Shown piece after piece: positions 4,713 to 32,978 of a stretch of DNA of 64,000 bases; the first letter of the stretch is position 1; every line of letters starts with the position of its first letter. Origin of the DNA: Candidatus Poseidoniaceae archaeon. Lineage in GTDB: Archaea > Thermoplasmatota > Poseidoniia > Poseidoniales > Poseidoniaceae. The notes below the pieces were generated by a model that was given only the letters and a program-made list of their open reading frames with translations, had not been told where the DNA came from and searched no databases. Location of the stretch: contig JAPKCS010000003.1 in the NCBI GenBank assembly GCA_028822845.1, positions 1 through 64,000 of the forward strand, written 5' to 3'. A program made the translations under genes and the position numbers.

Positions 4713-5516
4713 TTGAACTCTTGCCGGTTTGAGGCAAGGGTGATAGGCAGGGGGCGGTCAAAGCCACTCATGGGCGTCGACCGAATGCAATGGGGAGCCG
4801 AGGCTTGGCAATTTGCAGACCTTCACATGCCTGACGATCCATCTCCGTTCAAGAACGCTGTAGGGACACCATGCGTGATGCTCATCCATGGAGGATTCTG
4901 GAAGACAGAGTGGACGAGCGAGTTAATGCGACCCATTGCTGATGATTTAGCCGAAGCTGGAATCGCGGCTTGGAACATCGAGTTCAAACGATGGAGCGAA
5001 GACGATGAAGGGGTATGGATGGACACACTTTCTGATGTGCTTCGCGCATGGGGTCAACTGGCTCTGCTCCCTGGCATCGACGTCAGACGTTCAATGATCA
5101 TGGGCCATTCTGCTGGAGGCCAACTGGCACTGATGTTGGCTGCTAAGGCCGACCGGCGCCCATTGCTAACCATCGCTCAAGCCCCTATCACAGATTTGAT
5201 CGGCGCAGATCGGGCCAACCTTTCTGATGATGGGGATGCAGTACGAAAGTGGATCGGATCGACACCTGAAGAGTCACCTGAATTGTGGCGTCAATTGAAT
5301 CCAGTGGACCACCCCGCTGACGCGGCCATCCTCCTCGTTCATGGTGAACAGGATGTGGATGTGCCAAAGGAACAATCCGAAACCTATGCGCGAGTCATGA
5401 AAGCCAAGGGCGTTGAAGTTCAGAAACTATGGCTTCCCGGCGACCACTATTCCATCATTGATGTGGCCAGCGATGATTGGCTGGTTCAATTGAACGCCAT
5501 TCAGGATTGGCTTTGA
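4713..5516 (+). CDS. Alpha/beta hydrolase, kynurenine-formamidase-like
   Basis: HGGFWK oxyanion motif, GHSAGGQLAL nucleophile elbow, HGEQDVDVP (Asp) and GDHYSIID (His). Start may be internal (MGVDRMQWG, 4770). Confidence 0.7.
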   Translation: MNSCRFEARVIGRGRSKPLMGVDRMQWGAEAWQFADLHMPDDPSPFKNAVGTPCVMLIHGGFWKTEWTSELMRPIADDLAEAGIAAWNIEFKRWSEDDEGVWMDTLSDVLRAWGQLALLPGIDVRRSMIMGHSAGGQLALMLAAKADRRPLLTIAQAPITDLIGADRANLSDDGDAVRKWIGSTPEESPELWRQLNPVDHPADAAILLVHGEQDVDVPKEQSETYARVMKAKGVEVQKLWLPGDHYSIIDVASDDWLVQLNAIQDWL

Positions 5517-5560
5517 ACGGCCATCCCAAGACCTATGACGAAGCACCCACTGCGGTTGGT

Positions 5561-6376
5561 ATGGACCTGCTCGGAGATGACTTCCCCTACGCCGCAACGG
5601 CACTTCAAGGAAAGCACGCATTGGTATGCGGTGCGAGCAAAGGTATTGGTGAAGCAACTGCTAAAATGATGGCAAAGGCCGGAGCAAACGTCACCGTGTG
5701 CGCTCGCAGCACCGAGGCACTGACTGCTTTGTGCGCCGAACTTTCTGAACTTGGCCCGGGTGAGCACACGAGCTTGACCCTTGACCTCGAAGACAGCGAT
5801 GCAATCGTCGCGGCAATTCCAGCCCTCCTCGAACAACGAGGTCCGGTTCATATCTTGATCAACAACGCAGCAGGCCCCCCCGGAGGTCCATTGCTTTCGA
5901 ACACCCTCGATGAATTTGAAGCACCCTTCAAACGCCACCTCTATGCAGCTCACACATTGACTCAACTCCTCGCACCTGGTATGGAAGAAGTGGGCTATGG
6001 ACGCATCATCCAAATCATCTCGACCTCGGTAAAAGAACCAATTCCAAACATTGGCTTGTCAAACACTCTTCGTGGTGCTATGGCTTCATGGGCCAAGACC
6101 CTGTCCCGTGAATTGGCACCGTGCATCACCATCAACAACGTGCTCCCTGGATTCACCAACACGGGCCGGCTCGGTTCGTTAGCGGCATCGATTCAAGAAC
6201 GAACTGGAAAGTCCCTGGATGAGGTCCAATCTGCTTGGTTGAGTCAAGTTCCCATCGAACGCTTGATCGATCCCTTGGAAACAGCATCCGCCATTTCCTT
6301 TTTGGCACTGCCAGCATCAGGTGGCATCCGAGGAGTCAGCCTTGCAGTTGACGGTGGACGGCTCCGAAGCATCTGA
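5561..6376 (+). CDS. Short-chain dehydrogenase/reductase (3-oxoacyl-ACP reductase-like)
   Basis: GKHALVCGASKGIGEATAKMMAKAGANVTVCAR Rossmann motif, INNAAGPPGG, C-terminal AVDGGRLRSI. ORF 5477..6376 has an over-extended N-terminus; start uncertain. Confidence 0.85.
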   Translation: MDLLGDDFPYAATALQGKHALVCGASKGIGEATAKMMAKAGANVTVCARSTEALTALCAELSELGPGEHTSLTLDLEDSDAIVAAIPALLEQRGPVHILINNAAGPPGGPLLSNTLDEFEAPFKRHLYAAHTLTQLLAPGMEEVGYGRIIQIISTSVKEPIPNIGLSNTLRGAMASWAKTLSRELAPCITINNVLPGFTNTGRLGSLAASIQERTGKSLDEVQSAWLSQVPIERLIDPLETASAISFLALPASGGIRGVSLAVDGGRLRSI

Positions 6377-7354
6377 TCATCGGCGTATGTCAAACCACAC
6401 CGGGTAGTGATCCGAAACATTGCTGTCGTTGAACACTTCATCGATGCCCCAAACGCCCGTAAGACGACCGCTAAGATCGCCGTTGGTTAGAATCCGGTCA
6501 TAGGCACATGAACTCTGAGAGACGGTGGTGTCGGCATCGTTGCCGACCAGCCAAGTGTAATTTCCACCGGCTAATGCAGAGTTGGCAAGGTCTTGTTCAG
6601 AAGCATAGGTGCAGTCAGCGTTGAAGTCACCTAGCAAAACCAGATCTTCTTCATCCGGGTGTTCAGCAAGGTAGGTTGTGGCAACCTCATTCATGGCGTT
6701 GATTTCCTCCATTGCCGCTGCAGGCTTGGTGTGAACAGTGATGAGGCTCAAATCGAACGATGTCGGCTGACCAGTGGCGTTCAGCAAAGCGAACCTGGCT
6801 TGGAATGGCTCACGCTGGAAAAGGTCGTTTTCGCTGTCGTTGAACAACGAACCGTTGCCAATTGGTTCAAACACCGTGGTGTTGTAATAGAAAGCGTACT
6901 GCTCTTGTGATGATCGATCGTCTTCTTGCTGACCTGAACGAGGGCTAAGCACCATGGCCCATTCGACTTCACTTTCATTGTTGATGGCGTCGAGGAAATC
7001 ATACGGGACGGTTTGATCGATGTCCTTGATCTCTTGAATGGCAACGAGATCGTAGCGCAAAACAGTGTCGACCAGCACCGAAATGACCTCAGGTTTACCC
7101 ATTTTGGTTTCTCCGAACACCTTGATGTTGAAGGTTGCAATTCGTGCCACTTCGGAACGATTCAACTCAGGAGAGCGGGCATCATCCTCACCCGATGAGG
7201 TGGAATTCATGCTGGTGTTCTCAATTTCGATTGGAACAGCAACATAGACGACTTGAGCATCATCATCGGTGAGCATGATTTGGAGAGCAAGCGGTGCAAG
7301 GATCAAAATCGCTGCAAAACTGAGCCCTTGCAAGTAGCCATCGTACTTACCCAT
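6377..7354 (-). CDS. Membrane-anchored DNase I-like endonuclease (EEP superfamily)
   Basis: ATFNIKVFGETKMG, RYDLVAIQEIKD, TVHTKP, LGDFNADCTY, SSCAYDRIL and SDHYPVWF closely follow the DNase I catalytic and disulfide motifs; N-terminal hydrophobic helix. ORF 6377..7462, start uncertain. Confidence 0.85.
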   Translation of the reverse strand: MGKYDGYLQGLSFAAILILAPLALQIMLTDDDAQVVYVAVPIEIENTSMNSTSSGEDDARSPELNRSEVARIATFNIKVFGETKMGKPEVISVLVDTVLRYDLVAIQEIKDIDQTVPYDFLDAINNESEVEWAMVLSPRSGQQEDDRSSQEQYAFYYNTTVFEPIGNGSLFNDSENDLFQREPFQARFALLNATGQPTSFDLSLITVHTKPAAAMEEINAMNEVATTYLAEHPDEEDLVLLGDFNADCTYASEQDLANSALAGGNYTWLVGNDADTTVSQSSCAYDRILTNGDLSGRLTGVWGIDEVFNDSNVSDHYPVWFDIRR

Positions 7355-7443
7355 AGCAAGGGCTAACGCCCCGTGCGTATGAAGGTTCATCGAAAGGAGA
7401 AGCGGAGAGATATGTTCTTGACGCGGAGGACCCGCCGTCGAAC

Positions 7444-8280
7444 ATGGACGGCGAGGTAACACCTGACCAAGCCCGGCGGATTTTGGACATGCTCACCGCC
7501 GGTGGGGCGATGGAAGACATCAACACGTCGCTCGCCCTTCGACTCATTCCTCTCGCGGTCGAATTGGAAGATCAAACGCTTGCTGACCGCTTGCTCGAGC
7601 ATGCAAAAACCAATGCGACCGACAGCGTCGAGGAAGGTTGGGCTGCGTTTGAACAGCTCAAAATGGAAGATGCGACAATCGATGCATTATCGGAACTCTC
7701 CGCCCAAGCAGAAACGATTGAATCGGGTGAAGCACTGGCCGCTGCAGTTTCCCATCATGTGGCATTGATTCACATGGCGAACGAATCCTTTGAGGAAGCA
7801 CAGATGTTTGCCAACCGTTCGCTGCGTCTGCGAGAAATGGTCAAGGACAACAACGGTCTTGTGTATGGCTTGGCTTTGGTCGAGGCTCTTGCTAAGAAGC
7901 AGCACAATCACGAGACTGCGCTGGTTCACGGATCAAGGCGGATTGAATTGCTGATCGATTTGAAAGACGATGAAGGTCAGATGGAAGCCATGGCGGACAT
8001 GGGCCACAGTCAAGCAACGCTCGGCCAGTTTGATGCCGCCAAAGATTTGTACGGACAATCCCTCGAGTTGGCAGTCGTTCTGGAAGATCTCTCCGGCCAA
8101 CTCGTGGCTCGTTGGGGGCTGGCAGACATAGCAGAAATAGAAGAAGACTATGAAACTGCAATGCTCCAACTTTCAGATTGCCTTCACGCCTTCATCAACG
8201 CTGGTCTACCAACGCCCATCGCCGTGCGTGAACGAATTGAAGCCCTTACGAGTTTCAAGCCCCCGGCCAAGAAAGAGTGA
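7444..8280 (+). CDS. TPR-repeat protein
   Basis: Helical repeats such as ALVHGSRRIELLIDLKDDEGQMEAMADMGHSQATLGQFDAAKDLYGQSLELAVVLEDLSGQLVARWGLADIAEIEEDYETAMLQ. Confidence 0.75.
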   Translation: MDGEVTPDQARRILDMLTAGGAMEDINTSLALRLIPLAVELEDQTLADRLLEHAKTNATDSVEEGWAAFEQLKMEDATIDALSELSAQAETIESGEALAAAVSHHVALIHMANESFEEAQMFANRSLRLREMVKDNNGLVYGLALVEALAKKQHNHETALVHGSRRIELLIDLKDDEGQMEAMADMGHSQATLGQFDAAKDLYGQSLELAVVLEDLSGQLVARWGLADIAEIEEDYETAMLQLSDCLHAFINAGLPTPIAVRERIEALTSFKPPAKKE

Positions 8281-8357
8281 AACTTTGACCCCTTGGTTCA
8301 AGCAATTTCGCCACACTCGTTATGATGTGGCTTCGACTGGAAGGACTGGTGCCACCT

Positions 8358-9605
8358 ATGGACCACGACATCTTCTTCTCCATCAGCCAGACCCCGGATG
8401 CCGCGGGTCAGGTGCCTTCAGAGAACGAAATGTTCGCACACTATTTCCAACAACTTGAGTGTGCAGATCGCCTTGGTTTTGGCGTCGGATGGATTGCTCA
8501 AGCCCACCTCTCCACCGAGACACAAAAGAGCAATTCCCGCCCAGTGGTACCTCATTGGCAAGGTGAAGTTGGCCTCTGCACAGATTTCCCACAGCTGGCC
8601 ATGGAGTCGTTTCGAAGAACCAGTTCGATTGAAATCGGCAGCGCTGTTGTGTCCATATTAGCATCTGGTGGACCGATTGCTCAAGCAGAACGGATTGCTA
8701 ACACGCTCCAATTGCACGGCTTGAATCCAGATGAAACTCGGAAACTCCACATTGGGTTTTCCGCTGGGCGTTTCGAATTCATGGCTCGTCCATATGGGAT
8801 TGTGCCAAGGAACGCCATCGAAGAAGCGGCATGGCCGGCTTTACGTGGTCAAATCTTCATGGAAGCAGGTGACATCTTCCTCCGACTTCTGCGCGGCGAT
8901 GTCATCAATTCTGAACAGACATACGAGACCGTCCTCACCCGAAGCAACTTCCGATCCGATGAGGATTGGGTCAATGTCCAAAATGCTGCCATCGAATTCG
9001 AAGGGCTCGATTCCGCCCCTGAGCGAATTCTTATCCCGAAGCGTTACGTCTTTGAAGACCTCAAAATCATCCCGAAAAACTTCCGCAGGGAACTCTTGGA
9101 ATTGGTAGCAGGAACGCATGACCCAACGGCTCAAACCTTCCTGAACACCGTGTTGCCAGTGAAGGTATTCAACCTCTCAATCACCAAACCAGAAGTCATT
9201 GAAGCCACCCACCAGCGAATGTCCGAAGTGTTCCATCCATCCGGAGGCGCATGGCAACGCCGAGACATGCCACGGACTTCTTTTGTCTTCTTGAACGCCG
9301 AAGCGGCGTTGTCCTCAGAGGAACAAAGTGCAGCCGCACATGCCGAAGCAGATGCAGCACTTGGAGCGTATTGGAACGCACTCGAAGGGACCATCGATCC
9401 GAGCAAAGTCAGCAATGCAGCGAACAATGCTCTCATTGGCAACGCTGAAGAAGTTGCACAACAAATCATCGAACGGTTCCATCCTGAAGACAGGATCATG
9501 GCTTGGTTTGACTTTTTCAATCATGATTCGGACCGTGTGTGCCGAAACATGACCGCTTACATGGAGCAAGTTGTCCCGCTTGTCGAGTCAATGCTGAACA
9601 ATTGA
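8358..9605 (+). CDS. Luciferase-like monooxygenase (LLM class flavin-dependent oxidoreductase)
   Basis: ORF 8322..9605; MDHDIFFSISQTPDAAG...ECADRLGFGVGWIAQAHLSTE...QAERIANTLQLHGLNP...RKLHIGFSAGRFEFMARPYGI resembles the bacterial luciferase-like fold. Confidence 0.75.
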   Translation: MDHDIFFSISQTPDAAGQVPSENEMFAHYFQQLECADRLGFGVGWIAQAHLSTETQKSNSRPVVPHWQGEVGLCTDFPQLAMESFRRTSSIEIGSAVVSILASGGPIAQAERIANTLQLHGLNPDETRKLHIGFSAGRFEFMARPYGIVPRNAIEEAAWPALRGQIFMEAGDIFLRLLRGDVINSEQTYETVLTRSNFRSDEDWVNVQNAAIEFEGLDSAPERILIPKRYVFEDLKIIPKNFRRELLELVAGTHDPTAQTFLNTVLPVKVFNLSITKPEVIEATHQRMSEVFHPSGGAWQRRDMPRTSFVFLNAEAALSSEEQSAAAHAEADAALGAYWNALEGTIDPSKVSNAANNALIGNAEEVAQQIIERFHPEDRIMAWFDFFNHDSDRVCRNMTAYMEQVVPLVESMLNN

Positions 9606-9614
9606 GGTGATGCA

Positions 9615-10730
9615 ATGGCAATCGAACACGACACACCATCCGCTGTTGAACCAGGGCGACCTGGCAGTGCGATGTACCCCGATAGCCCTCTTGGAGAGAA
9701 GGTCGAAGGAATTCCGACCGGGCGTGAAGTGGCTTGGGAACCCCTCGTCGATTACCGACGAAACGGTGTGTCAGAAACCACGATTCATGGCGCAGTGGCT
9801 TGGGCACACGGCGATGAGGTGATCCACTCTTTTGGAGGCAATGTTCTGTGTTATGGCCGGTCGATGATGAAGCCGTTCATGCTCAAGGCTTTCACCGAAG
9901 AATTAGCTGATGCCTCATGGGAACAAAAAGCAATTTCCGTGGCCTCACACAACGGCGACACCGAACACGTCGCTGCAGCTCAATCCCTGCTCGTCGAGGA
10001 AGAATGGCCCCTGATGCTCACGCCCCTCGATGTCCCTCTGATTCAATTTGGCCGTCAAGTACGTCGTCCACGCCGATGGTTCCACACCTGCTCTGGTGAG
10101 CATGCTGCGATCCTTCATGGCTGCCGCAAGAAAGGGTGGAATCGAGCGGGCTACACGCTGCCAACCCACGAAGTCTTCCATGCCTACATGGCGGAAATAC
10201 GCACCTACCTCGGCAAAGATTGGAAACCCCTGCGCATTGCCAAAGATGGCTGTGGGCTGCCGACTGTTTCCAACACCGTTTCTGAACTGGCGCAAATTTA
10301 TGCAGGCCTGGTTCGCGACAAGGACAAGGATTGGATTTGGGAAGCCATGGTTCGCCATCCAGATCTCGTCGGTGGATTCAATCGACTTGATTCCACTGTC
10401 CTCAAAGCAGGTGAAGGCAAGGTCATCGCCAAGGAAGGCGCTGATGGTTTGCTCGGTTTAGCAATCGAGCATCCAGATTACCCAAAGGGGCTCGGGATTG
10501 TCGTCAAAATCGCTCACGGTTGGAACTCACAAGCAACATGGTATGTCGCACGGGCGTTGCTTGGAGTGTTAGGAATTAACCTCCGAAACCCCTACCCACT
10601 TCACAGGCAGAAAGCCTTCATTGTTCCTGGTATTGTACCCGAACGCTACCTCGAGCGCCTTGAAACCCTCCCCACATGGGATGAATGGGACCCTGACCAA
10701 GACCGATGGTTGTACGATGTGGAGGTTTGA
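9615..10730 (+). CDS. Asparaginase II family protein (Rhizobium AnsA-like)
   Basis: VAWAHGDEVIHSFGG, GRSMMKPFMLKAF, SVASHNGDTEHVAAAQSLL, HTCSGEHAAILHGC and KDGCGLPTVSNTVSELAQIYA match the asparaginase II family. Confidence 0.8.
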   Translation: MAIEHDTPSAVEPGRPGSAMYPDSPLGEKVEGIPTGREVAWEPLVDYRRNGVSETTIHGAVAWAHGDEVIHSFGGNVLCYGRSMMKPFMLKAFTEELADASWEQKAISVASHNGDTEHVAAAQSLLVEEEWPLMLTPLDVPLIQFGRQVRRPRRWFHTCSGEHAAILHGCRKKGWNRAGYTLPTHEVFHAYMAEIRTYLGKDWKPLRIAKDGCGLPTVSNTVSELAQIYAGLVRDKDKDWIWEAMVRHPDLVGGFNRLDSTVLKAGEGKVIAKEGADGLLGLAIEHPDYPKGLGIVVKIAHGWNSQATWYVARALLGVLGINLRNPYPLHRQKAFIVPGIVPERYLERLETLPTWDEWDPDQDRWLYDVEV

Positions 10731-10732
10731 AC

Positions 10733-12184
10733 ATGCAAGAGGTGTTCAACTACATCGATGGTCAATTTTCTCCGTCTGCAGATGGTGGGCACCTCGAAAA
10801 CCTCAACCCTGCAACGGGTGAAGTCATTTCGACCATCCCCCGTTCGCTCCAAGCCGATGTTGAAAACGCAGCGAGTGCAGCCAACAGGGCCCAACCAGCA
10901 TGGAACGCACTGAGCCTTGAACAACGGGCAGTGTGGCTTGATCGCATCGCTGATGCCCTCGAGAAAAAGCATGAGCACATCGCCCAATCTGAATCATTGG
11001 ACACAGGAAAACCAATCGCGCTCGCTCGACGCGTTGATGCATCCCGTTCGGTTGATAATTTCCGGTTCTTCGCTGAATTTGCAAGGGAGCAAACGGAAAT
11101 GACCTTCAAAATGGACGATGCCATGAACTATGTTCATCGAAATGGACTCGGTGTGGTTGGATTGATCACGCCGTGGAACCTTCCGCTCTATCTGCTCTCA
11201 TGGAAGGTCGCCCCCGCCTTGTTGATGGGCAACACCATTGTTGCCAAGCCAAGCGAACTGACGCCGCTCACCGCCAATATTTTGGCAGAAACTCTGCATG
11301 AACTCAACCTCCCAAAGGGTGTGTTCAATCTGGTCCATGGACTTGGACCTGAAGTTGGTCAAGCCATCCTCGAGCACCCTGAAATCAAGGGTATTTCCTT
11401 CACCGGCGGCACCGCAACAGGGCGAATTGTTGCTGCCACAGCCGCACCCATGTTCAAGAAACTCTCATTGGAACTCGGTGGGAAGAATGCCACCATTATC
11501 TTGGACGATGCTGATCTGGCCATTGCCGTCAAAGGCGCGGTCCGTGCGGCGTTTACCAACTCCGGGCAAGTGTGTTTATGCGGCTCACGTTTGCTTGTTC
11601 AATCGTCCATTGCCGATGCATTCCTCCCCGCCTTCATCGCAGAAGTCGAAGCCATGAAGATCGGGGCGCCAAGCGATGAGACGTCTCAAATCAGCTCGAT
11701 TATTTCGATGGAACACCTCCACAAAGTCGAGTCATACATTGAACTCGCACTCCACGAAGGTGGCGACATCTTCACCGGAGGAACACGAACAATGACTGGT
11801 CCAGTTGGCCCCGATGCTCACGGTGCGTACTTGGCCCCCACCGTCATCGGTGGACTGAGCCATCTGTCCCGGTGTGCGACCGAGGAAATCTTTGGTCCAG
11901 TGGTCACCGTTCATATCTTTGACACACTTGAACAAGCCACAGAAATGGCGAACGCTACAGAATATGGTTTGGCGGGTTCAATATGGACAAGGGACACCGC
12001 ACAAGGGCGAGCCCTTGCTCAAACCATCGACACCGGCATCGTATGGATCAACACATGGCTGCATCGAGACTTACGCACACCCTTTGGTGGAGTGAAGAAC
12101 TCTGGTGTGGGTCGCGAAGGCGGGCAGTGGTCTCTTGGATTCTTTTCTGAGACCACAAACGTCTGCGTTCTTGACCCTAAATGA
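10733..12184 (+). CDS. Aldehyde dehydrogenase, ALDH8 / 2-aminomuconate-6-semialdehyde dehydrogenase-like
   Basis: RSVDNFRFFAEFAREQTEMT, VGLITPWNLPLYLLSWKVAPALLMGNTIVAKPSELT, LSLELGGKN, NSGQVCLCGSRLLVQSSI, TPFGGVKNSGVGREGG; these resemble the ALDH8A1/AmnC group. Confidence 0.85.
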   Translation: MQEVFNYIDGQFSPSADGGHLENLNPATGEVISTIPRSLQADVENAASAANRAQPAWNALSLEQRAVWLDRIADALEKKHEHIAQSESLDTGKPIALARRVDASRSVDNFRFFAEFAREQTEMTFKMDDAMNYVHRNGLGVVGLITPWNLPLYLLSWKVAPALLMGNTIVAKPSELTPLTANILAETLHELNLPKGVFNLVHGLGPEVGQAILEHPEIKGISFTGGTATGRIVAATAAPMFKKLSLELGGKNATIILDDADLAIAVKGAVRAAFTNSGQVCLCGSRLLVQSSIADAFLPAFIAEVEAMKIGAPSDETSQISSIISMEHLHKVESYIELALHEGGDIFTGGTRTMTGPVGPDAHGAYLAPTVIGGLSHLSRCATEEIFGPVVTVHIFDTLEQATEMANATEYGLAGSIWTRDTAQGRALAQTIDTGIVWINTWLHRDLRTPFGGVKNSGVGREGGQWSLGFFSETTNVCVLDPK

Positions 12185-12234
12185 TTCGACGCCGATGAAC
12201 ACATCTTCAAAAGCAGAGAGCCAGTAAAATATAC

Positions 12235-12966
12235 ATGAGCAATCAAGCCACCCTCCCATTGTTTGTCTTGCCCATGGTGTTGATGCCAGGGGAAGTACAG
12301 GAACTCAGGGTGTTTGAACCACGTTACCGACAAATGCTCGACGATTGTGTCCTCGACAACAAAAACTTCGGCTTGGTCATGAACGATCCATTTGAACCAG
12401 CGAACCACTGGGATGGACCAAGAAGCCACGGCTGCGAAGCAGAAATCTTGGAACATGACACCAAAGGGAGCAATCATTTCCTCTCCATTATTGGTCGGCG
12501 TCGCTTTATCGTTGAGGAAGTCATCGCACCCGCTCTGCCACCTTTTGAACACCCATCGATGGAAGCGCTGAATGAAGATGACGGGTTGTACCCTGATCTC
12601 CAAACATTGCTCAGCCACGTGCCGGAATCATCAACCCATGAGAAATTGTACATCGCAGCAAATGTGCGCTACTATGAGGATGAGGCACCAACCAGTGACG
12701 AACATCAAACAATGTTGCGTGAAATTTTAGATGGCGTCTTGAAGCGAATCGGAGCCATCCTCCGGATCGATGACACCACCCTCGATTCCTGGGTTGCAGA
12801 GCGCGTGGACCATGTGATTGATGAAAAGCCAACCTCAGTGTTCACGGTCGCTGCTCTTGTTCTCAACGGTCTCGAAGCAAAGCAGCAAGTCCTCGCAAGT
12901 GCTGATGCAGAGGAAGCATTGGCTGAATTAAATCACCAATTGTCTTCATTCTATGAGGAAGAATAA
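12235..12966 (+). CDS. LON substrate-binding (N-terminal) domain protein
   Basis: [43 protein letters not shown] and [11 protein letters not shown] match the Lon N-terminal domain; no AAA or protease domain follows. Confidence 0.8.
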
Positions 12967-13018
12967 GCCTACAAGTTGCTGGCGAGGGTTTCAAAACACC
13001 CCCAACCGTGGGAGAACC

Positions 13019-13840
13019 ATGTCCGTACATCGCAATGCGCGCAAAGTAACGACACACACACTTCTGGAAATGAAGCGTGCTGAGGAAAAAATCACCATGC
13101 TCACCGCATACGATTATTCCCTAGCGAAGTTGGTTGACCAAGCAGGCGTCGATGTCATCCTCGTTGGAGACTCCGCCTCCAACGTCATGGCTGGACAAGT
13201 CACAACTGTACCAATGACCTTGGATCACATGATCTATCATGCACAATGTGTCCAACGGGCCGTTGACCGGGCATTAATTGTCGTCGATATGCCATTTGGA
13301 ACCTACCAAGGAAACTCAGCCATCGCCCTTGAATCGGCCATCCGCATTATGAAAGAAGCCGAGGGCCACGCTGTGAAACTTGAAGGCGGATCTGAAATCA
13401 TTCAATCCGTCGAGCGTATTTTGACCGCTGGAATCCCAGTGATGGGCCACCTTGGTCTCACCCCGCAATCCATCTACAAATTCGGCACCTACACCGTTCG
13501 TGCCAAAGAGGAAGAAGAAGCTGAAAAATTGATTTCCGATGCGAAGTTGCTTGAAGCGACAGGTTGCTTTGCCATTGTCCTTGAGAAAATCCCTCGAGAA
13601 TTGGCGAAGCGTGTTCAAGAATCAATCTCCATTCCTACCATCGGTATTGGAGCAGGTCCAGACTGCGATGGACAAGTGTTGGTGCTCCATGACTTGCTTG
13701 GTATCACCATGGATTTCTCACCCCGGTTCCTGCGTCGTTACCTCAACCTTGCAGAAGACATCAACTCAGCCATCACCAACTATTGCGAAGATGTACGGGC
13801 CGGAAGCTTCCCGAATGATTCGGAAAGTTACACCTCGTGA
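13019..13840 (+). CDS. panB: 3-methyl-2-oxobutanoate (ketopantoate) hydroxymethyltransferase
   Basis: [88 protein letters not shown]. Confidence 0.95.
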
Positions 13841-14323
13841 TCAGAGGATGTTGAACAGCACAACAGCGCCTGCGAAGGCACCCAAATCAATCCCCATGGC
13901 ATGCCATATGCCGTACGTAAATGGAGGCAACTGACGCCGTGCCCACATCATGGAAACGGAAACCCAAGCCAAGAAGATGGCGTACATGCCACAAAATAAA
14001 GCGCCCCAGCCCGACAACCAAACCACGCATAATGGGAGAGCGAGCGCGGCGAATCCTAAACTGTATTCAAAACAGCGTTTGAACGAAGTGTGAACCAAAA
14101 TTCGGTACATCAAGGGTGAAATCAACAAGGCCAAGAGCAACCCAAATTGCACCGGATTGGGCAGGTAGATTGATTCAAGATCGGATGAGTAGTTTTGCCA
14201 AGCACTTCCAAGCAACGAACCAATCAAGGCTGGGGCAAGAATATGCTTCAAACCGGTCTTAAGGTCGTCTTTGATGGTCAGCATTTCGACCTCATCCACG
14301 ATGATGCTCACCCCGTCCTCCAT
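13841..14323 (-). CDS. Uncharacterised multi-spanning membrane protein
   Basis: ORF 13841..14425, start uncertain; several hydrophobic segments (FGLLLALLISPLMYRILV, FAALALPLCVVWLSGWGALFCGMYAIFLAWVSV). Confidence 0.65.
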   Translation of the reverse strand: MEDGVSIIVDEVEMLTIKDDLKTGLKHILAPALIGSLLGSAWQNYSSDLESIYLPNPVQFGLLLALLISPLMYRILVHTSFKRCFEYSLGFAALALPLCVVWLSGWGALFCGMYAIFLAWVSVSMMWARRQLPPFTYGIWHAMGIDLGAFAGAVVLFNIL

Positions 14324-14423
14324 GACCCTTCGAAATCGCCGCCTTGTTTGAGCCTTGGGTCCATCATGTTTGCAGGGGTGAAACGCCGATGTCGATATAT
14401 CCCCCGAGCGCGTGGCTCTGTCC

Positions 14424-15326
14424 ATGACGCAAGGTGAAATCGTAGCGGGTTGTTTGGCACCCCATCCACCTCATTTGGTCTACGCCGAGAACCCACCTCA
14501 AAACGAACCCGTTGCAGAAGGCGGCTGGGAACAACTTCGATGGGGCTATGAACGCTTGAGAGATTCCCTCAAAGATGTGGAATACGATGCGATTGTTTTG
14601 CTATCACCCCATTGGCAAACCTATGTTGGAACCCATTTCCTCGGTCTTCCAAATTTCAAGAGCCTCTCCGTCGACCCTGTGTTTCCAAACCTGTTCCGCT
14701 ACCATTACGACCTCAACATCGATGTGGACCTGACTTCAAAGATCCATGACAAGGCCGCAAAAGCAGGCTTGACTGTCAAAATGATGGAGAATCCAGACTT
14801 CCGCGTGGATTATGGCACCATCACCACCGGCCACATGTTCAATCCAGCATGGGACAAGCCACTCGTGGTCATCTCGAGCAACCGTTCAAGAGATTACTAT
14901 TCGGTGGAAGTCATGCAAGAAATGATGATTGAACTCGGTAAAGTCACCCGGGAAGCTATTTTGGAAAGTGGCAAGAAGGTGGTCGTGATTGCGAGCAACT
15001 CCCTTTCACACCGCCATTTCACCACCGAGTCGGCCATTCCAGAAGACATGAGCAAGGAGCACATCACGAGCCATGCCATGCACCTGTGGGACATGCGCAT
15101 GATCAACTACTTCCGCACAGGCCAAGCGCAACGAATCCTCGATGAAATGCCTGAGTTCACTGAGCAAGCGATTGCGGAAAGCGATGGTGGAGGCTTGTCC
15201 TGGCTCCTTTCAACGCTTGACACTCCAAGCTACCCTGCGACACTGCACGGGTATGGAACGATCATCGGGACTGGAAACGCCATTGTCGAATGGCCAGAAC
15301 GAGACCACAAGGAGGCGAAACAATGA
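14424..15326 (+). CDS. LigB-family extradiol dioxygenase, beta-like (catalytic) subunit; 2-aminophenol 1,6-dioxygenase-like
   Basis: MTQGEIVAGCLAPHPPHLVYAENPPQNEP...YDAIVLLSPHWQTYVGTHFLG...VDYGTITTGHMFNPAWDKPLVVISSN...: class III extradiol dioxygenase motifs. ATGA overlap with the downstream gene. Confidence 0.8.
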   Translation: MTQGEIVAGCLAPHPPHLVYAENPPQNEPVAEGGWEQLRWGYERLRDSLKDVEYDAIVLLSPHWQTYVGTHFLGLPNFKSLSVDPVFPNLFRYHYDLNIDVDLTSKIHDKAAKAGLTVKMMENPDFRVDYGTITTGHMFNPAWDKPLVVISSNRSRDYYSVEVMQEMMIELGKVTREAILESGKKVVVIASNSLSHRHFTTESAIPEDMSKEHITSHAMHLWDMRMINYFRTGQAQRILDEMPEFTEQAIAESDGGGLSWLLSTLDTPSYPATLHGYGTIIGTGNAIVEWPERDHKEAKQ

Positions 15327-16738
15327 CTGAAGGTTCAATCGTTGGTTCATTCATTGTCCCAGTCCACCCTCACACCGTCTTAGCCCCTGAACAAAATGAG
15401 GGTTGGCAACGCTTGCGCGATGCGTTTGATGAAGCTGCTCAACGAATCAAGGACGCTGATGCTGATTTGTTGATCATCTATTCGACGACATGGCCGAGCA
15501 TCATCGGCCATCAAATTCAAGCCGATCCAAACCCGGAATGGGTGATGGTTGACAATGACTTCCACGACCTTGGCTCGATTCCATATTCATTCAACATCGA
15601 TGCTGATTTCGCCCATGCATGGAACGTAGCAAATGAGAAGCGGGGTTTGAAATCTCGAACAGTGAACTACACGGGTTTCCCCATTGATGTGGGTTCCGTC
15701 GTGGCCCTCAAATTACTGAATCCTGACAATGCCATCCCTGCTGTGATTGTTTCATCCAACGTCTATGCGAACCGGTCCGAAACCACAGTTCTGGCCAAAT
15801 CGTGCCTTGATGTGATCAAGGCCACCGGACGGAAAGCGGTTGCGATCACTGCAATGTCGCTATCGAACAGGATGTTCACCGCTCCAATCGATCCGAAAGA
15901 TGATCGGATTCATTCCCTGAAAGACGACGAATGGAATCGGAAGATCCTCGAATTCCTCGGCGAGGGCCGTTTGGAAGATGTTGGTCAACTCTCAAGGACC
16001 ATCCACCAGCAGATTCGAGTTCAGAAAGTCGTTGCGTTCAAGCCGATGTGGTGGCTTTCAGGCATGAACGATAACCGCAACAACCTCAGCGGCGAAGTCC
16101 TCGCTTACGAAGCAATTCACGGTGCTGGCGGGGCTGTTGTTCATCTTGATCCGACACCATCGGGTGCAGGTGACAAAGAATACGATGAAGATGATGTCGA
16201 ATTTTTCAGTGGCGAGCGAAACGTGCTCGATGCTGAAGAAGAGCATGAACTCATCGAGGATTCCGTAGCACCGACCTCAAGCGGTCCTGAACTTTGGGAA
16301 CCGACAACGGGTGAGCACTCAGTTAACAGTGAAGCCGCACCAAAACCAGTGGGTATGTACCCGCACGCTAGGAAGGTCGGAGATCTGCTGTACCTTTCGG
16401 GAGTCGGACCACGGCAACCGGGAACAAATGCCATCCCAGGTGGACCAATCTGTGATGAGAACGGCCAAGCGCTCGACTACGACATCAAAGCACAAACCAA
16501 AGCAGTCGTCGACAACATCACTCGTATCTTAGAAGAAGCCGGAGGATCGATCGAAGATGTTCTCGATGTGACTTCGTTCCTCGTCGACATGGATCGAGAT
16601 TTCAGTGGTTACAACGAAGTCTGGGCCGAGACACTTGGAAAGGTCGGTCCCACAAGGACCACGCTCGCTATTCGTGCCCTTCCAACACCAATTGCTGTTG
16701 AGATGAAAGTCATCGCTCGGGCACCGACGACTGAATGA
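15323..16738 (+). CDS. Fusion protein: LigB-like (aminophenol dioxygenase alpha-like) domain, acidic linker, RidA/YjgF-family (2-aminomuconate deaminase-like) domain
   Basis: N-terminal half MTEGSIVGSFIVPVHPHTVLAPEQNEGW...LLIIYSTTWPSIIGHQIQ...; linker about 16150-16310; C-terminal GMYPHARKVGDLLYLSGVGPRQPGTNAIPGG...DYDIKAQTKAVVDNITRILEEAGGSIEDVLDVTSFLVDM...GPTRTTLAIRALPTPIAVEMKVIA. SD-like AAGGAGG precedes the ATG. Confidence 0.85.
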   Translation: MTEGSIVGSFIVPVHPHTVLAPEQNEGWQRLRDAFDEAAQRIKDADADLLIIYSTTWPSIIGHQIQADPNPEWVMVDNDFHDLGSIPYSFNIDADFAHAWNVANEKRGLKSRTVNYTGFPIDVGSVVALKLLNPDNAIPAVIVSSNVYANRSETTVLAKSCLDVIKATGRKAVAITAMSLSNRMFTAPIDPKDDRIHSLKDDEWNRKILEFLGEGRLEDVGQLSRTIHQQIRVQKVVAFKPMWWLSGMNDNRNNLSGEVLAYEAIHGAGGAVVHLDPTPSGAGDKEYDEDDVEFFSGERNVLDAEEEHELIEDSVAPTSSGPELWEPTTGEHSVNSEAAPKPVGMYPHARKVGDLLYLSGVGPRQPGTNAIPGGPICDENGQALDYDIKAQTKAVVDNITRILEEAGGSIEDVLDVTSFLVDMDRDFSGYNEVWAETLGKVGPTRTTLAIRALPTPIAVEMKVIARAPTTE

Positions 16739-16847: not shown

Positions 16848-18503
16848 ATGGACTTGAAAGGAACCGCAGAAAAACTCATTCACGGCGATGTCAAAGGCGC
16901 TATGCAGGATGTGGGGAAGGGTATTGAACGGACCCTCGGATTATCCGGCGTGATCATCATTTCCCTATCAGCAATGCTTGGATCTGGCCTCTTTGTGTTG
17001 CCATCTATGGCTGCTGACTTGATGGGAGATGGCATGTGGCTGGCATACGTTCTTGCAGCGACAGTCGTTCTTCCTGGAGCGATCTCCAAATCAGAAATGG
17101 CATCCGCACTGCCGGTCTCTGGTGGAACGTATGTCTATGTTGAACGGACCTATGGACCGCTGATTGGAACGATCACTGGATTGGGCCTGTGGGCATCATT
17201 CCTCCTCAAAGCTGCATTTGCCCTGATTGGTCTCTCTGCGTACATGTATGCTTTTACCTCATTTTTTGATGTTGAATTCAATACAATCAATGTTTCGCTC
17301 TCGGTTTTGGTCCTGGTTGTTGTGATCAATATTCTTGGTGTGAAAAAGATAAAATCAATACAAGCGCCAATCGTTGGTTCTGCCGTTGCGTTCCTCATTC
17401 TCCTTTCCATTGCGGCTCTGTTCATGGATTCGACAGACTTGGCCAGGCCAGGTAAGGCAGCCTTCGATACAGACACATTGCTCTTAGCAGAAACTGCAGC
17501 CCTGGTGTTTGTGGCCTATGCTGGAGTGACGAAGGTGGCTGCAATTGCGGGGGAAATCAAAAACCCCGGAAAGAACCTTCCGAATGGAATGTATTTGTCC
17601 CTGCTCTTTGCAACATTGCTCTACGCTGGAGTTGCCTATGTGTTGATGGCGGCACTGCCAGACCAATGGTGGATTCAAGACGGCCATACAGCCCAAGACC
17701 CGATCTTCATCTTCGCAACCCATGTCGGCGGTGAGACCGTTGGGCTCTTCGCTGCCGTGCTTGCCATATTCACAATGGCATCAATGGCTCTAGCAGGAAT
17801 TTTAGCCTCTTCACGCTACCTTTTCGCAATGTCACGCGATAGTCTTCTTCCTCAACTTTTTGAAGACTTGAACCCAAAATGGGAAACACCTCACTGGGCG
17901 ATCATATTCACTGGAGGCATGATGGCCTTTGCGATCGTATTCTTACCGGTCTACGACGTCGCTAAACTTGCTTCAGGATTCCAAATCATGGTGTTCATCG
18001 TCATCAATTCATGCGTCATCGTTCTCCGCCAACTCAAACGCAATCTAGAGTGGTATCAACCAACCTACAAAGGTCCGTTCTATCCAGTCATCCAACTGTG
18101 GGGAATCGTTGCTGGAGCCGCCCTCATATGGATGATGGGCGAGAAGGCATTCATCGGAGCAGGTGCAGCGGTCCTCATCGGCCTCATCACCTATTACGGA
18201 TACGGAAAGAAGCATTCGCACCCTCGAGAAACACCATTTGAATCATTCCGAAAACAGTTTACCAACCCAACGAAATCTGAACATGACCGCCGTATTTCGG
18301 TGTTCCATGCTGCGGACCTCGGTGGGAAAAACCACTTGACACTAAGTGAATTCCAACATGCCTTGGAATCACTGGATTTCGAATTCAAGTCCGATGAATC
18401 AAGGTTGATTTTCCATAAGTCTGATCTCAATGGGGACGGTTTTGTGGACATTGATGAGTTCATCACCACCTTCGAAAATGAGATCATCGAAGAAGAAGGC
18501 TGA
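16848..18503 (+). CDS. APC-superfamily amino-acid permease with C-terminal EF-hand pair
   Basis: LSGVIIISLSAMLGSGLFVLPSMAA...SGGTYVYVERTYGPLIGTITGLGLW (APC signatures, multiple TM), then C-terminal HAADLGGKNHLTLSEFQHALE (degenerate) and HKSDLNGDGFVDIDEFITTFE (canonical EF loop). Confidence 0.9.
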   Translation: MDLKGTAEKLIHGDVKGAMQDVGKGIERTLGLSGVIIISLSAMLGSGLFVLPSMAADLMGDGMWLAYVLAATVVLPGAISKSEMASALPVSGGTYVYVERTYGPLIGTITGLGLWASFLLKAAFALIGLSAYMYAFTSFFDVEFNTINVSLSVLVLVVVINILGVKKIKSIQAPIVGSAVAFLILLSIAALFMDSTDLARPGKAAFDTDTLLLAETAALVFVAYAGVTKVAAIAGEIKNPGKNLPNGMYLSLLFATLLYAGVAYVLMAALPDQWWIQDGHTAQDPIFIFATHVGGETVGLFAAVLAIFTMASMALAGILASSRYLFAMSRDSLLPQLFEDLNPKWETPHWAIIFTGGMMAFAIVFLPVYDVAKLASGFQIMVFIVINSCVIVLRQLKRNLEWYQPTYKGPFYPVIQLWGIVAGAALIWMMGEKAFIGAGAAVLIGLITYYGYGKKHSHPRETPFESFRKQFTNPTKSEHDRRISVFHAADLGGKNHLTLSEFQHALESLDFEFKSDESRLIFHKSDLNGDGFVDIDEFITTFENEIIEEEG

Positions 18504-18677: not shown

Positions 18678-21272
18678 TCAGTTCACCCGGGTCCACGAAC
18701 CGTCTTCACCGACGTTCCAGTATTGGACTTCGCTGCTTACATCGACGTACCAACCAGATTGTCCTTGCTCGGTTCCTGGAGCGGCTTGCATGACACCGAC
18801 TTCGCTTGCTTTTGCAGCAAGCGACTGTTTGAGTTCTTCAGTGAGGTCAATGCTGGAAGGCGCGCCATCGTCGGATGCCTCATCAGCTTCGTCAGAATCC
18901 AAATCGTCCTCATATTCATCTTCTGACCATTCATCTTCCTCAGTGTTGTTGACCTTTCGAACAAGCACCACCAGCGTGATCAAAATCAGACCAAGGAGGA
19001 AAGATCCCAGCGTCATTGCAGTGTTCGTTGAGCCTACAGCACCTCCGAACAAAACCGATTCGACGTCAAAGAAGCGCTGAGTGATCAGTCCATCCCAATT
19101 GACGGTGCAGGATCGATCGTTGCCTGCAGAATTAATGTTTAATTCCCATGTATCGCCGGTAACATACCTCGCTTTTCCTGCAGAGCAGGACACGGTTGTG
19201 TTTTCAGGTTCAACGATGACAAGGTTATCGTATTCATCGATGCCCTGAAGTTGAAGCAACACCGTGTCGCCTTGCGCGATGTCAAAGCCGTCAAGCTCTG
19301 CGAGAATCCGAACGGCCTGACCTGGCTGGATGGCCAAATCAATGCTGTGAGTCGCTCCGTCTTGAACAAACGTCAACGTGTAGAGTCCAGCGACCCGCCC
19401 GGTGAAGTCCCAGTAGCCGTTGCCTGAAGGTGAGCCTTCAAGCACGCCAAAGGTTTCATCCAAAAGAACGGTTACATTCGTTGCTGGCGCCATGTTGCCA
19501 TGAGCGTCAACCACTTGGATGAACACTTCCGAGGGGACACCTGCGTCGACCGTAAGTCCACTTTCGTAATCGGTCACCAAGTTTCGAGCCTCGCCAGCGA
19601 TGACGGTCAGCCGAATCGTGGCAAAGATACCATCAGCGTTGGCACGGATTTCATGGCCACCGACCTCGGTCGGCATCCAGTGCATGTTTGCAAGCATGAG
19701 TTCAACCGTTGCGTCTTCTCCATCCACCGTCCAATTAAGGCCAATTTGCGCAAGTTGATTGCCAAATCCATCAAAGAATGTAGGATTGAGGTCAAGCGGT
19801 GCATCAGAGGCAATGATGGCGTTGGCACCGTTCATTTCGATGAAAGCCAAACTGCCACTTTGTGTGGTGGCCTGAAACAGACTGTCGAACCGGAGGTCCG
19901 AACTTGCGTCGTACCACGAGGCTTCCACACGCCATACCGTGAGCGAGCGGGGTGCGAGCGTTGCGTACCCTTCATAGGTGGTGAAATACGAAGCATTGCC
20001 GGAAATCAATGACATTGTTCCATTGACCAGCCATTGGTTTCCAACGGCATCAACGGCCCAAAACGAGAGAACATTCTGCTGACCTGCTCTGAGCACCGAC
20101 GGCTCAAGCGTCAGCGATGTCTCAATCGCGCTCCCATGGACAATGTTGACTTCAACAGAAGAAGCAACACCTTCATCGATGACGTTGAGATGATGAACAC
20201 CCATGGCTCCCGGTGTCCAATGAATTCGACCATCGACGTTGGCAAGTCCACCGCTTGTTGTTGTGAAATTAGCGAGCGGGGGGGTGAACGAACCGGTGTA
20301 TCCATTGACGTCAGTTCGCATGGTGACAAGTTCGTATGCTTGCCCTGCAATGTATGTTTCACCATCGGAGAGCACGGTGATCTGTGACAGGGATGCGTCA
20401 GCTGGTACGACTCGAATGGTCGCAGCACCAGTGATGTTGCCTGCAGCAACTGTGAGGTTCCAAACGCCGGGATACGTCGCTGAAAAGCGACCAACAGGAC
20501 TCATGGTTCCGTTCTCGGCCGTCCAGGTTTTGTAACCAGCCTCTGTGTGATTCATCTCGAAGCCGTTCTGGTCGAGCAAACGTACTTGGAGGTAGATTGA
20601 TTCACCGCTTCGAATTTGAAGATCGTCTTCGAAAAGGAACTCATGAGGTCCATCTGCAATGACTTCGACCATTCGGTTGTCTTCCATTTGGTTCAAGCGG
20701 GCTCGGACATGAACATCGCCCAATTCGGTTGGTATCCATTGAGGCGTACCGATTCCAGCATAGGTTCCATCGAGGGTCCAAACGACATCAGTGGCGGGCT
20801 TAGCATTCCCTCGAGCGTCCAAAAGATTCGCTTGTAGGGAGGTGCTGGTGAGTGCATGCGCACTGGAGGTGGTAATCTTCAACGATTGACCAACACCCGC
20901 ACTTACGGTGATGTTGAACACATCTGTTAGACCTGCGTGACTCGCTTCGATGCTGATCAGGCCTGCCTGCCAAGGATAGAACACACCCTCGCTGCTGATC
21001 GTACCATTGGAACTTGACCAATTGATCTGACCTGAAGCGATGTTGTTGACCGCATCGTACAACGCGGCTTCGAACGTGGCCACCTCATCGGCGGTCATTG
21101 AGTACACAGGTGAAGCGATTGCAATGCGAGTCGCTGGACCTGCTCGATGTACCTCAATGTCATCTTCGAGAACAGATGTCGCTGCCAGTGGCTGCCAAGC
21201 TTGGGTGCAAAAAAGCGTGACCAGCAGCAGGCAAAGCATTGTTTTTACCGATTGAGACCGTAAAATTCGCAT
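18678..21272 (-). CDS. Secreted Ig-like/invasin-like repeat surface protein with C-terminal TM helix and acidic Trp-containing tail
   Basis: Start MRILRSQSVKTMLCLLLVTLFC preceded by a perfect SD; Ig-like repeats (FEAALYDAVNNIASGQINWSSSNGTISSEGVFYPWQAGLISIEAS); TM LGSFLLGLILITLVVLV; tail WSEDEYEDDLDSDEADEASDDG...GWYVDVSSEVQYWNVGEDGSWTRVN. Confidence 0.85.
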   Translation of the reverse strand: MRILRSQSVKTMLCLLLVTLFCTQAWQPLAATSVLEDDIEVHRAGPATRIAIASPVYSMTADEVATFEAALYDAVNNIASGQINWSSSNGTISSEGVFYPWQAGLISIEASHAGLTDVFNITVSAGVGQSLKITTSSAHALTSTSLQANLLDARGNAKPATDVVWTLDGTYAGIGTPQWIPTELGDVHVRARLNQMEDNRMVEVIADGPHEFLFEDDLQIRSGESIYLQVRLLDQNGFEMNHTEAGYKTWTAENGTMSPVGRFSATYPGVWNLTVAAGNITGAATIRVVPADASLSQITVLSDGETYIAGQAYELVTMRTDVNGYTGSFTPPLANFTTTSGGLANVDGRIHWTPGAMGVHHLNVIDEGVASSVEVNIVHGSAIETSLTLEPSVLRAGQQNVLSFWAVDAVGNQWLVNGTMSLISGNASYFTTYEGYATLAPRSLTVWRVEASWYDASSDLRFDSLFQATTQSGSLAFIEMNGANAIIASDAPLDLNPTFFDGFGNQLAQIGLNWTVDGEDATVELMLANMHWMPTEVGGHEIRANADGIFATIRLTVIAGEARNLVTDYESGLTVDAGVPSEVFIQVVDAHGNMAPATNVTVLLDETFGVLEGSPSGNGYWDFTGRVAGLYTLTFVQDGATHSIDLAIQPGQAVRILAELDGFDIAQGDTVLLQLQGIDEYDNLVIVEPENTTVSCSAGKARYVTGDTWELNINSAGNDRSCTVNWDGLITQRFFDVESVLFGGAVGSTNTAMTLGSFLLGLILITLVVLVRKVNNTEEDEWSEDEYEDDLDSDEADEASDDGAPSSIDLTEELKQSLAAKASEVGVMQAAPGTEQGQSGWYVDVSSEVQYWNVGEDGSWTRVN

Positions 21273-21276
21273 ATCT

Positions 21277-21285
21277 TCACCTCCT
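21277..21285 (-). promoter_or_regulatory. Shine-Dalgarno sequence for the 18678..21272 gene
   Basis: Minus-strand AGGAGGTGA, 4 nt upstream of the ATG at 21272. Confidence 0.8.
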
Positions 21286-21311
21286 GCTTCAACCTGTATC
21301 AAAGACGCTGT

Positions 21312-32848: not shown

Positions 32849-32978
32849 GCCGGGGTGGCGCAGTTGGTAGCGCGTCGGACTCATAGGGCAGCCTCAGGGC
32901 ATTCGTATGACGTGCAAACCCCCTTGTGGTGTCTGAGACATCCGAAGGTCGCGGGTTCAAGCCCCGCTCCCGGCACCA
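32849..32978 (+). tRNA. tRNA-Met(CAT), elongator-like, with a 54-nt intron (32886..32939) at canonical position 37/38; CCA encoded
   Basis: Acceptor GCCGGGG/TCCCGGC, D-arm GCGCAGTTGGTAGCGC, anticodon stem TCGGA/TCCGA with loop CTCATA|intron|A, T-arm GCGGG TTCAAGC CCCGC, 3' ACCA. Intron boundary shows CTCA/TGAG 4-bp helix between two 3-nt bulges. Confidence 0.93.

Follow-up and report, generated by a model that had tools for sequence, protein, structure and literature searches.

The window analysed here is a 64,000-nucleotide stretch of a Poseidoniia metagenome-assembled genome (MAG) of 1.92 Mb, and its main point of interest is a set of genes on the + strand, within one 12 kb stretch, that bears on the fate of tryptophan in these organisms. 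The Poseidoniia (Marine Groups II and III, or MGII and MGIII) are among the most abundant uncultured marine archaea and have streamlined genomes. The set begins with an alpha/beta hydrolase gene (4713-5516), which overlaps a gene for an SDR protein of the PRK08339 type (5477-6376, family start near 5561). Next come a luciferase-like flavin monooxygenase (LLM; 8322-9605, start probably about 8358), a PF06089 asparaginase II homologue (ASN; 9615-10730), an aldehyde dehydrogenase (ALDH; 10706-12184, start probably 10733), a LigB protein (14412-15326) and a LigB-RidA fusion (15290-16738). A first-pass annotation had read this region as an archaeal neighbourhood for meta-cleavage of aromatic amines, and every gene that it named is present at its place. 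The meta-cleavage set stands, but the reading needs widening: the cluster probably represents, in archaeal form, a tryptophan-catabolic operon that is widespread, includes tryptophan 2,3-dioxygenase (TDO) and a formamidase, and bypasses kynureninase.

Judged by the closest solved relatives, the LigB pair is AmnB and AmnA, the catalytic and alpha subunits of 2-aminophenol 1,6-dioxygenase, the ALDH is an AmnC-like 2-aminomuconate 6-semialdehyde dehydrogenase (AMSDH), and the RidA domain is AmnD-like. The best matches of AmnB are 8ihg_A, 3vsg_B and 7txy_B (E 1e-91 to 1e-107, about 54% identity), with 362 bits to 8ihg_A, a 2-aminophenol 1,6-dioxygenase beta subunit. Its iron ligands H18, H67 and E256 and the catalytic H200 are invariant with AmnB of the Comamonas/Pseudomonas type. 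The N-terminal part of the fusion best matches 2-aminophenol dioxygenase alpha subunits (3vsg_A, 136 bits), and HpaD-type matches of the pair are far weaker. The C-terminal domain of the fusion (about residues 344-479) scores 92 bits against the 2-aminomuconate deaminase 6izh_A, compared with 73 or less for other RidA entries; RidA is fused to or adjoins AmnA in bacteria too. For the ALDH, the top seven among 159 PDB sequences are all AMSDH, at 420-455 bits (4u3w, 4i1w, 4npi, 5kj5, 7bzv). The earlier proposal of an archaeal AmnB/AmnA/AmnC/AmnD set tied to kynurenine chemistry is upheld, and the LigB pair does not fall with unrelated LigB enzymes.

The linkage of these genes, which had also been anticipated, is conserved over great distances. 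A profile search of GTDB genomes with the LLM confirmed 400 relatives, and the 80 best were retained. The order SDR-LLM-ASN-ALDH-AmnB-AmnA recurs in archaea and in six or more bacterial phyla, so the arrangement is not due to chance. Within the Poseidoniia it is kept in MGIII, the third family of the class, and in parts of the other two families; in many MGIIb genomes AmnBA lies apart from an SDR-LLM-ASN-ALDH block. Outside the class, the same six-gene order is carried by a groundwater Thermoplasmata archaeon and by Acidobacteriota, Planctomycetota, Myxococcota/Deltaproteobacteria, Krumholzibacteriota, Latescibacterota and proteobacterial MAGs. The idea of an archaeal version is thus correct in that the set occurs in archaea, but it is not archaeon-specific. 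In the LLM tree the Poseidoniia form a single clade (100/99) amid bacterial lineages. Among 119 sampled Poseidoniia genomes from the three families, AmnB is found in 106 and LLM in 113; a set retained this widely is core to the life of the class. Viral contigs yielded no relative, and the AmnB loci found on plasmids (L074-L076) were set aside as ordinary 2-aminophenol operons with neither LLM nor ASN.

The fullest arrangements bring in the start of tryptophan breakdown. The bacterial operon reads TDO-SDR-LLM-ASN-ALDH-AmnB-AmnA(::RidA)-KynB (KynB being TIGR03035 and TDO TIGR03036), and adjacent genes often overlap at their start and stop codons. An MGIII archaeon (locus L053) carries TDO-SDR-LLM-ASN-ALDH-hydrolase-AmnB-AmnA-RidA followed by a formyltransferase-like gene, and most neighbours there overlap at start and stop codons as well. 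The operon arrangement with TDO is also present on single-cell contigs (L136, L143), arguing that it is not a binning artefact. TDO occurs in 111 of the 119 Poseidoniia genomes, and in all 37 LLM genomes tested outside the class compared with 2 of 14 control genomes (Fisher p 6e-10), a co-occurrence that was scored in genomes picked by the LLM search itself. LLM and TDO are jointly lost above expectation (p 2e-6), a figure to which incomplete linked contigs contribute; in one 97% complete genome (G001), AmnB, LLM and TDO are all missing together. A search of the rest of the window genome, as the first-pass annotation had proposed, located TDO on another contig. This TDO is canonical: it aligns over its full length to human TDO, conserves the motifs HQxxELWFK and GTGGSSG, and scores 191.5 bits against PF03301, over the cut-off.

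Three kinds of candidate occupy the formamidase slot. Bacteria have KynB there; four MGIIa loci, the one in the window among them, have an AFMID-like hydrolase. In 39 MGIIb/MGIII loci the slot is filled by a PF00551 formyltransferase-like protein with an Asn-x-His and Asp motif, whose gene (L053:7345-8061 on the - strand, L136:8466-9170 on the + strand, and about 37 other Poseidoniia loci) adjoins SDR in MGIIb or RidA in MGIII. The three are mutually exclusive, in that no locus has two of them. Such swapping of unrelated enzymes in one slot is expected for deformylation of N-formylkynurenine and so provides independent support for the pathway. The window hydrolase is of the BD-FAE/S9 type (matches to PF20434/PF00326), with no solved AFMID among its matches; it is from its gene position that we propose it as the N-formylkynurenine formamidase of this MGIIa lineage. 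The PF00551 protein is a candidate N-formylkynurenine deformylase or transformylase.

Kynureninase scored above the curated cut-off in only 1 of the 119 Poseidoniia genomes and in none of 26 operon-bearing genomes outside the class. A search of 60 genomes for 3-hydroxyanthranilate dioxygenase (3-HAO) gave one strong match, in the MGII genome G034, and two marginal cupin matches of 25-26 bits. With these two enzymes lacking, the 3-hydroxyanthranilate branch that the first-pass annotation had entertained was rejected. In addition, no ACMSD-type decarboxylase could be recognised in the conserved part of the operon, as would suit a ring-cleavage substrate that has no carboxyl group, namely 2-aminophenol. 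Since TDO and the 2-aminophenol set are present and kynureninase is absent, another enzyme must cut the side chain of kynurenine.

Three enzymes of the operon, LLM, ASN and the SDR, have no assigned step, and the best candidates for this task are LLM and ASN. They had been taken for new or accessory steps, and accessory they are not, being the most conserved, translationally coupled core of the cluster; most likely they are the kynurenine-cleaving steps. The window LLM protein has no Pfam match at 0.01, and its bacterial homologues exceed the PF00296 cut-off. Its AlphaFold2 (AF2) model (pLDDT 92.6) is nearest to the bacterial luciferase superfamily (E 1e-14), and its fold neighbours include luciferases, alkanesulfonate monooxygenases, the type II Baeyer-Villiger enzyme 4uwm (which is not the nearest) and RutA. 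On the basis of this modelled fold and of the chemistry described below, LLM is proposed to be a type II Baeyer-Villiger oxygenase acting on kynurenine.

The presence of RutA among these neighbours raises the question of whether AmnBACD might use 2-aminophenol from some other source, with LLM and ASN forming a separate Rut-like route of ring opening and amide hydrolysis and the clustering being incidental. The enzyme classes do resemble those of Rut, including a flavin monooxygenase, an amidohydrolase, RidA, an alpha/beta hydrolase and an SDR. However, RutA ranked far below the luciferase relatives, ASN belongs to PF06089 rather than to the isochorismatase-type hydrolases, the operon also holds TDO and KynB, and gene order and coupling are kept over many phyla. 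An incidental association is therefore highly improbable, and a Rut-like pyrimidine route in particular was rejected, given TDO and AmnAB in the operon and the differing protein families.

ASN, a putative hydrolase of the beta-aspartyl 2-aminophenyl ester or of N4-(2-hydroxyphenyl)asparagine, scores 161.8 bits against PF06089, and its model has significant fold matches only to the class 3 asparaginases ReAV and ReAIV. Ser48, Lys51, Ser80 and Lys263 are essential residues of ReAV, in which Arg47 binds the alpha-carboxylate of the substrate (PMC8602277, PMC12292245). Residues R82, S83, K86, S111, D211 and K273 of ASN, which correspond to R47, S48, K51, S80, D187 and K263 of ReAV, are invariant in 32 archaeal and bacterial sequences, so that both Ser-Lys tandems of the class (S83-K86, S111-K273) and the substrate Arg (R82) are kept. 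The ReAV zinc site (Cys135/Lys138/Cys189) is not: Lys138 is replaced by Glu (or Gln) in the ASN family, and both Cys are replaced in three of its members (L053, L054, L114). ASN is therefore classed by its residues as a PF06089 relative and not as L-asparaginase proper. Invariant Ser-Lys and Arg residues combined with variable zinc ligands fit an enzyme whose substrate would still carry the L-aspartyl beta-acyl group but have a different leaving group.

The proposed pathway would run as follows. TDO, encoded on the other contig in the window genome, would convert tryptophan to N-formylkynurenine, and the formamidase, here the AFMID-like hydrolase, would release kynurenine. In Baeyer-Villiger oxidation of an o-aminophenyl ketone such as kynurenine, the electron-rich aryl group migrates to give a 2-aminophenyl ester. 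We infer that LLM, with FMN, would insert an oxygen into the bond that joins the ketone to the aminophenyl ring, to give the 2-aminophenyl beta-ester of L-aspartate, which might rearrange to N4-(2-hydroxyphenyl)-L-asparagine. The acyl half of this product is beta-aspartyl, the group handled by asparaginases, and this is what points to ASN as the ester hydrolase: its Ser-Lys machinery would attack the beta-aspartyl carbonyl to yield L-aspartate and 2-aminophenol. AmnBA would then cleave 2-aminophenol to 2-aminomuconate semialdehyde, the AmnC-like ALDH would oxidise this to 2-aminomuconate, and the AmnD-like RidA domain would deaminate the latter to 4-oxalocrotonate. The assignment of the route from tryptophan to 2-aminophenol is very likely correct, and the exact chemistry deduced for LLM and ASN is likely. 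We favor, with moderate confidence, the fuller proposal of a third aerobic tryptophan route in pelagic archaea and many uncultured bacteria. In it, a flavin Baeyer-Villiger oxygenase and a repurposed asparaginase would cleave kynurenine to L-aspartate and 2-aminophenol, and in MGIIb and MGIII a formyltransferase-family enzyme would deformylate N-formylkynurenine, the formyl group possibly being saved as formyl-tetrahydrofolate.

The same genes could be arranged differently if LLM were a ring hydroxylase, analogous to KMO, that forms 3-hydroxykynurenine; AmnBA would then cut the ring either directly or after ASN had acted as a C-C hydrolase in the manner of kynureninase. This scheme also accounts for TDO without kynureninase, it draws on the hydroxylation known for some LLMs, and 3-hydroxykynurenine is itself an o-aminophenol. 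Nevertheless it is unlikely, because the Ser nucleophile of class 3 asparaginases acts on beta-aspartyl acyl groups and not on C-C bonds, and because 3-hydroxyanthranilate, if released, would require a decarboxylase of which none was recognised in the operon. The roughly 54% identity of AmnB to 2-aminophenol enzymes and the AMSDH-like ALDH also speak against it.

Several observations weigh against the kynurenine-cleaving route via 2-aminophenol or limit its reach. LLM is only about 15% identical to solved enzymes, which does not fix its substrate or its cofactor (FMN or F420), and the Baeyer-Villiger step is a deduction from chemistry. The TDO association, as mentioned above, comes from genomes selected by LLM. 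Actinobacterial LLM near TDO lacks a true ASN orthologue, so LLM may have other uses there, and four further LLM-bearing MAGs are without ASN, possibly through incompleteness. The proposed scheme assigns no role to the SDR. G034 has kynureninase and 3-HAO alongside the operon (L207:6088-7329, L208); contamination as the source of its kynureninase was not supported by composition or neighbours, and it is kept as a true exception that may reflect a separate NAD de novo route. Finally, the lower pathway is not where it was expected. A classical downstream aldolase had been anticipated elsewhere in the genome, and 4-hydroxy-2-oxovalerate (HOA) aldolase (TIGR03217) exceeds its cut-off in none of 60 Poseidoniia genomes. 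The single FAA hydrolase of the window genome lies beside a branched-chain-aminotransferase-like gene and looks like a generic acylpyruvase. The classical lower pathway was rejected on these grounds; one possibility is that 4-oxalocrotonate is reduced to 2-oxoadipate.

The missing lower pathway, in genomes this streamlined, would also fit an operon that served mainly biosynthesis or detoxification, producing picolinate or another compound through cyclisation of 2-aminomuconate semialdehyde rather than supplying carbon and nitrogen. Actinobacterial relatives that may sit in natural-product loci point the same way. Nearly all full operons, however, also have AmnC and AmnD, which would consume the semialdehyde, and an amino-acid permease adjoins AmnA. 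A mainly biosynthetic role is thus very unlikely, and catabolism of tryptophan through 2-aminophenol remains the preferred reading.

The SDR, which lies directly upstream of LLM in almost all loci, retains the NAD(P) motif, and SNxxR replaces the catalytic YxxxK in all 23 sequences. The replacement does not vary between archaea, Planctomycetota and Myxococcota, and this SNxxR subfamily is always tied to the operon; it may reduce a late intermediate or act as a partner of LLM. The actinobacterial LLM homologues (L077, L078, L119 and L073:15001-16245) are about 45-48% identical, some lie near TDO, and none has an ASN orthologue; they are possibly kynurenine-modifying enzymes of natural-product pathways. 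The copy on the S. clavuligerus megaplasmid (L073) has no adjoining pathway genes and was set aside as uninformative.

Most relatives' clusters lack the genes that break up the set in the window (nuclease, TPR protein, LON-domain protein, PanB and a membrane protein), and these genes are hitchhikers. Immediately downstream, at 16848-18503 (+), lies an unusual fusion of an APC amino-acid permease with a C-terminal EF-hand pair, which adjoins or lies near AmnA in many MGII genomes and is a possible uptake component, or tryptophan importer. Beyond it are genes for an 874-aa protein (18678-21302) and, on the - strand, for a 3070-aa putative surface protein (21312-30524) with repeated domains, a C-terminal membrane anchor and a W-rich tail that the tail of the 874-aa protein resembles. 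An Rfam tRNA match of 127 bases at 32849-32975 (+), not called by ARAGORN, is probably an intron-containing archaeal tRNA gene.

If the proposal is correct, it defines a kynureninase-free tryptophan pathway with two new enzyme functions, a kynurenine Baeyer-Villiger oxygenase and a beta-aspartyl aryl ester/anilide hydrolase. A possible third is a formyltransferase-fold N-formylkynurenine deformylase. Tryptophan also becomes a testable growth substrate toward the culturing of MGII. The route was not found described in the open-access literature searched, a search that did not cover subscription papers or preprints.

The closest parallels are partial ones. The bacterial kynurenine pathways (anthranilate and 3-hydroxyanthranilate branches) share the start with TDO and formamidase, and the 3-hydroxyanthranilate branch also has AmnC- and AmnD-type late steps in common with the present set. 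They differ in using kynureninase or 3-HAO, neither of which is part of this operon, and the side chain leaves there as alanine but would leave here as aspartate. In the degradation of 4-hydroxyacetophenone, HAPMO, a type I FAD Baeyer-Villiger monooxygenase, is followed by an arylesterase. The proposed route would follow the same logic, in which an aryl ketone undergoes Baeyer-Villiger oxidation and the resulting aryl ester is hydrolysed; here the oxygenase is of the luciferase type and the hydrolase is from the asparaginase family, in place of the type I FAD enzyme and a generic esterase. The class 3 L-asparaginases ReAV and ReAIV of Rhizobium etli (PMC8602277, PMC12292245) share with ASN the fold, the Ser-Lys tandems and the alpha-carboxylate Arg. 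Identity is about 23%, the zinc-site Lys is Glu in most ASN sequences, and some have neither Cys; the ASN subfamily is itself very strongly conserved, at about 70-78% across domains, which suggests another substrate. The Rut pyrimidine pathway has a similar make-up of flavin monooxygenase, amidohydrolase, RidA and alpha/beta hydrolase, but the families are mostly different, RutB and RutF are lacking here, and the present set is joined to TDO and AmnAB. Finally, 2-aminophenol meta-cleavage (amnBACFEDHG of Pseudomonas sp. AP-3, cnb of Comamonas CNB-1) shares homologues of AmnB, AmnA, AmnC and AmnD that would act one after another, and the iron ligands are conserved. Here no AmnE, F, G or H adjoins and AmnA and AmnD are fused, and the 2-aminophenol that comes from nitrobenzene or aniline compounds in those bacteria is predicted to come from tryptophan.

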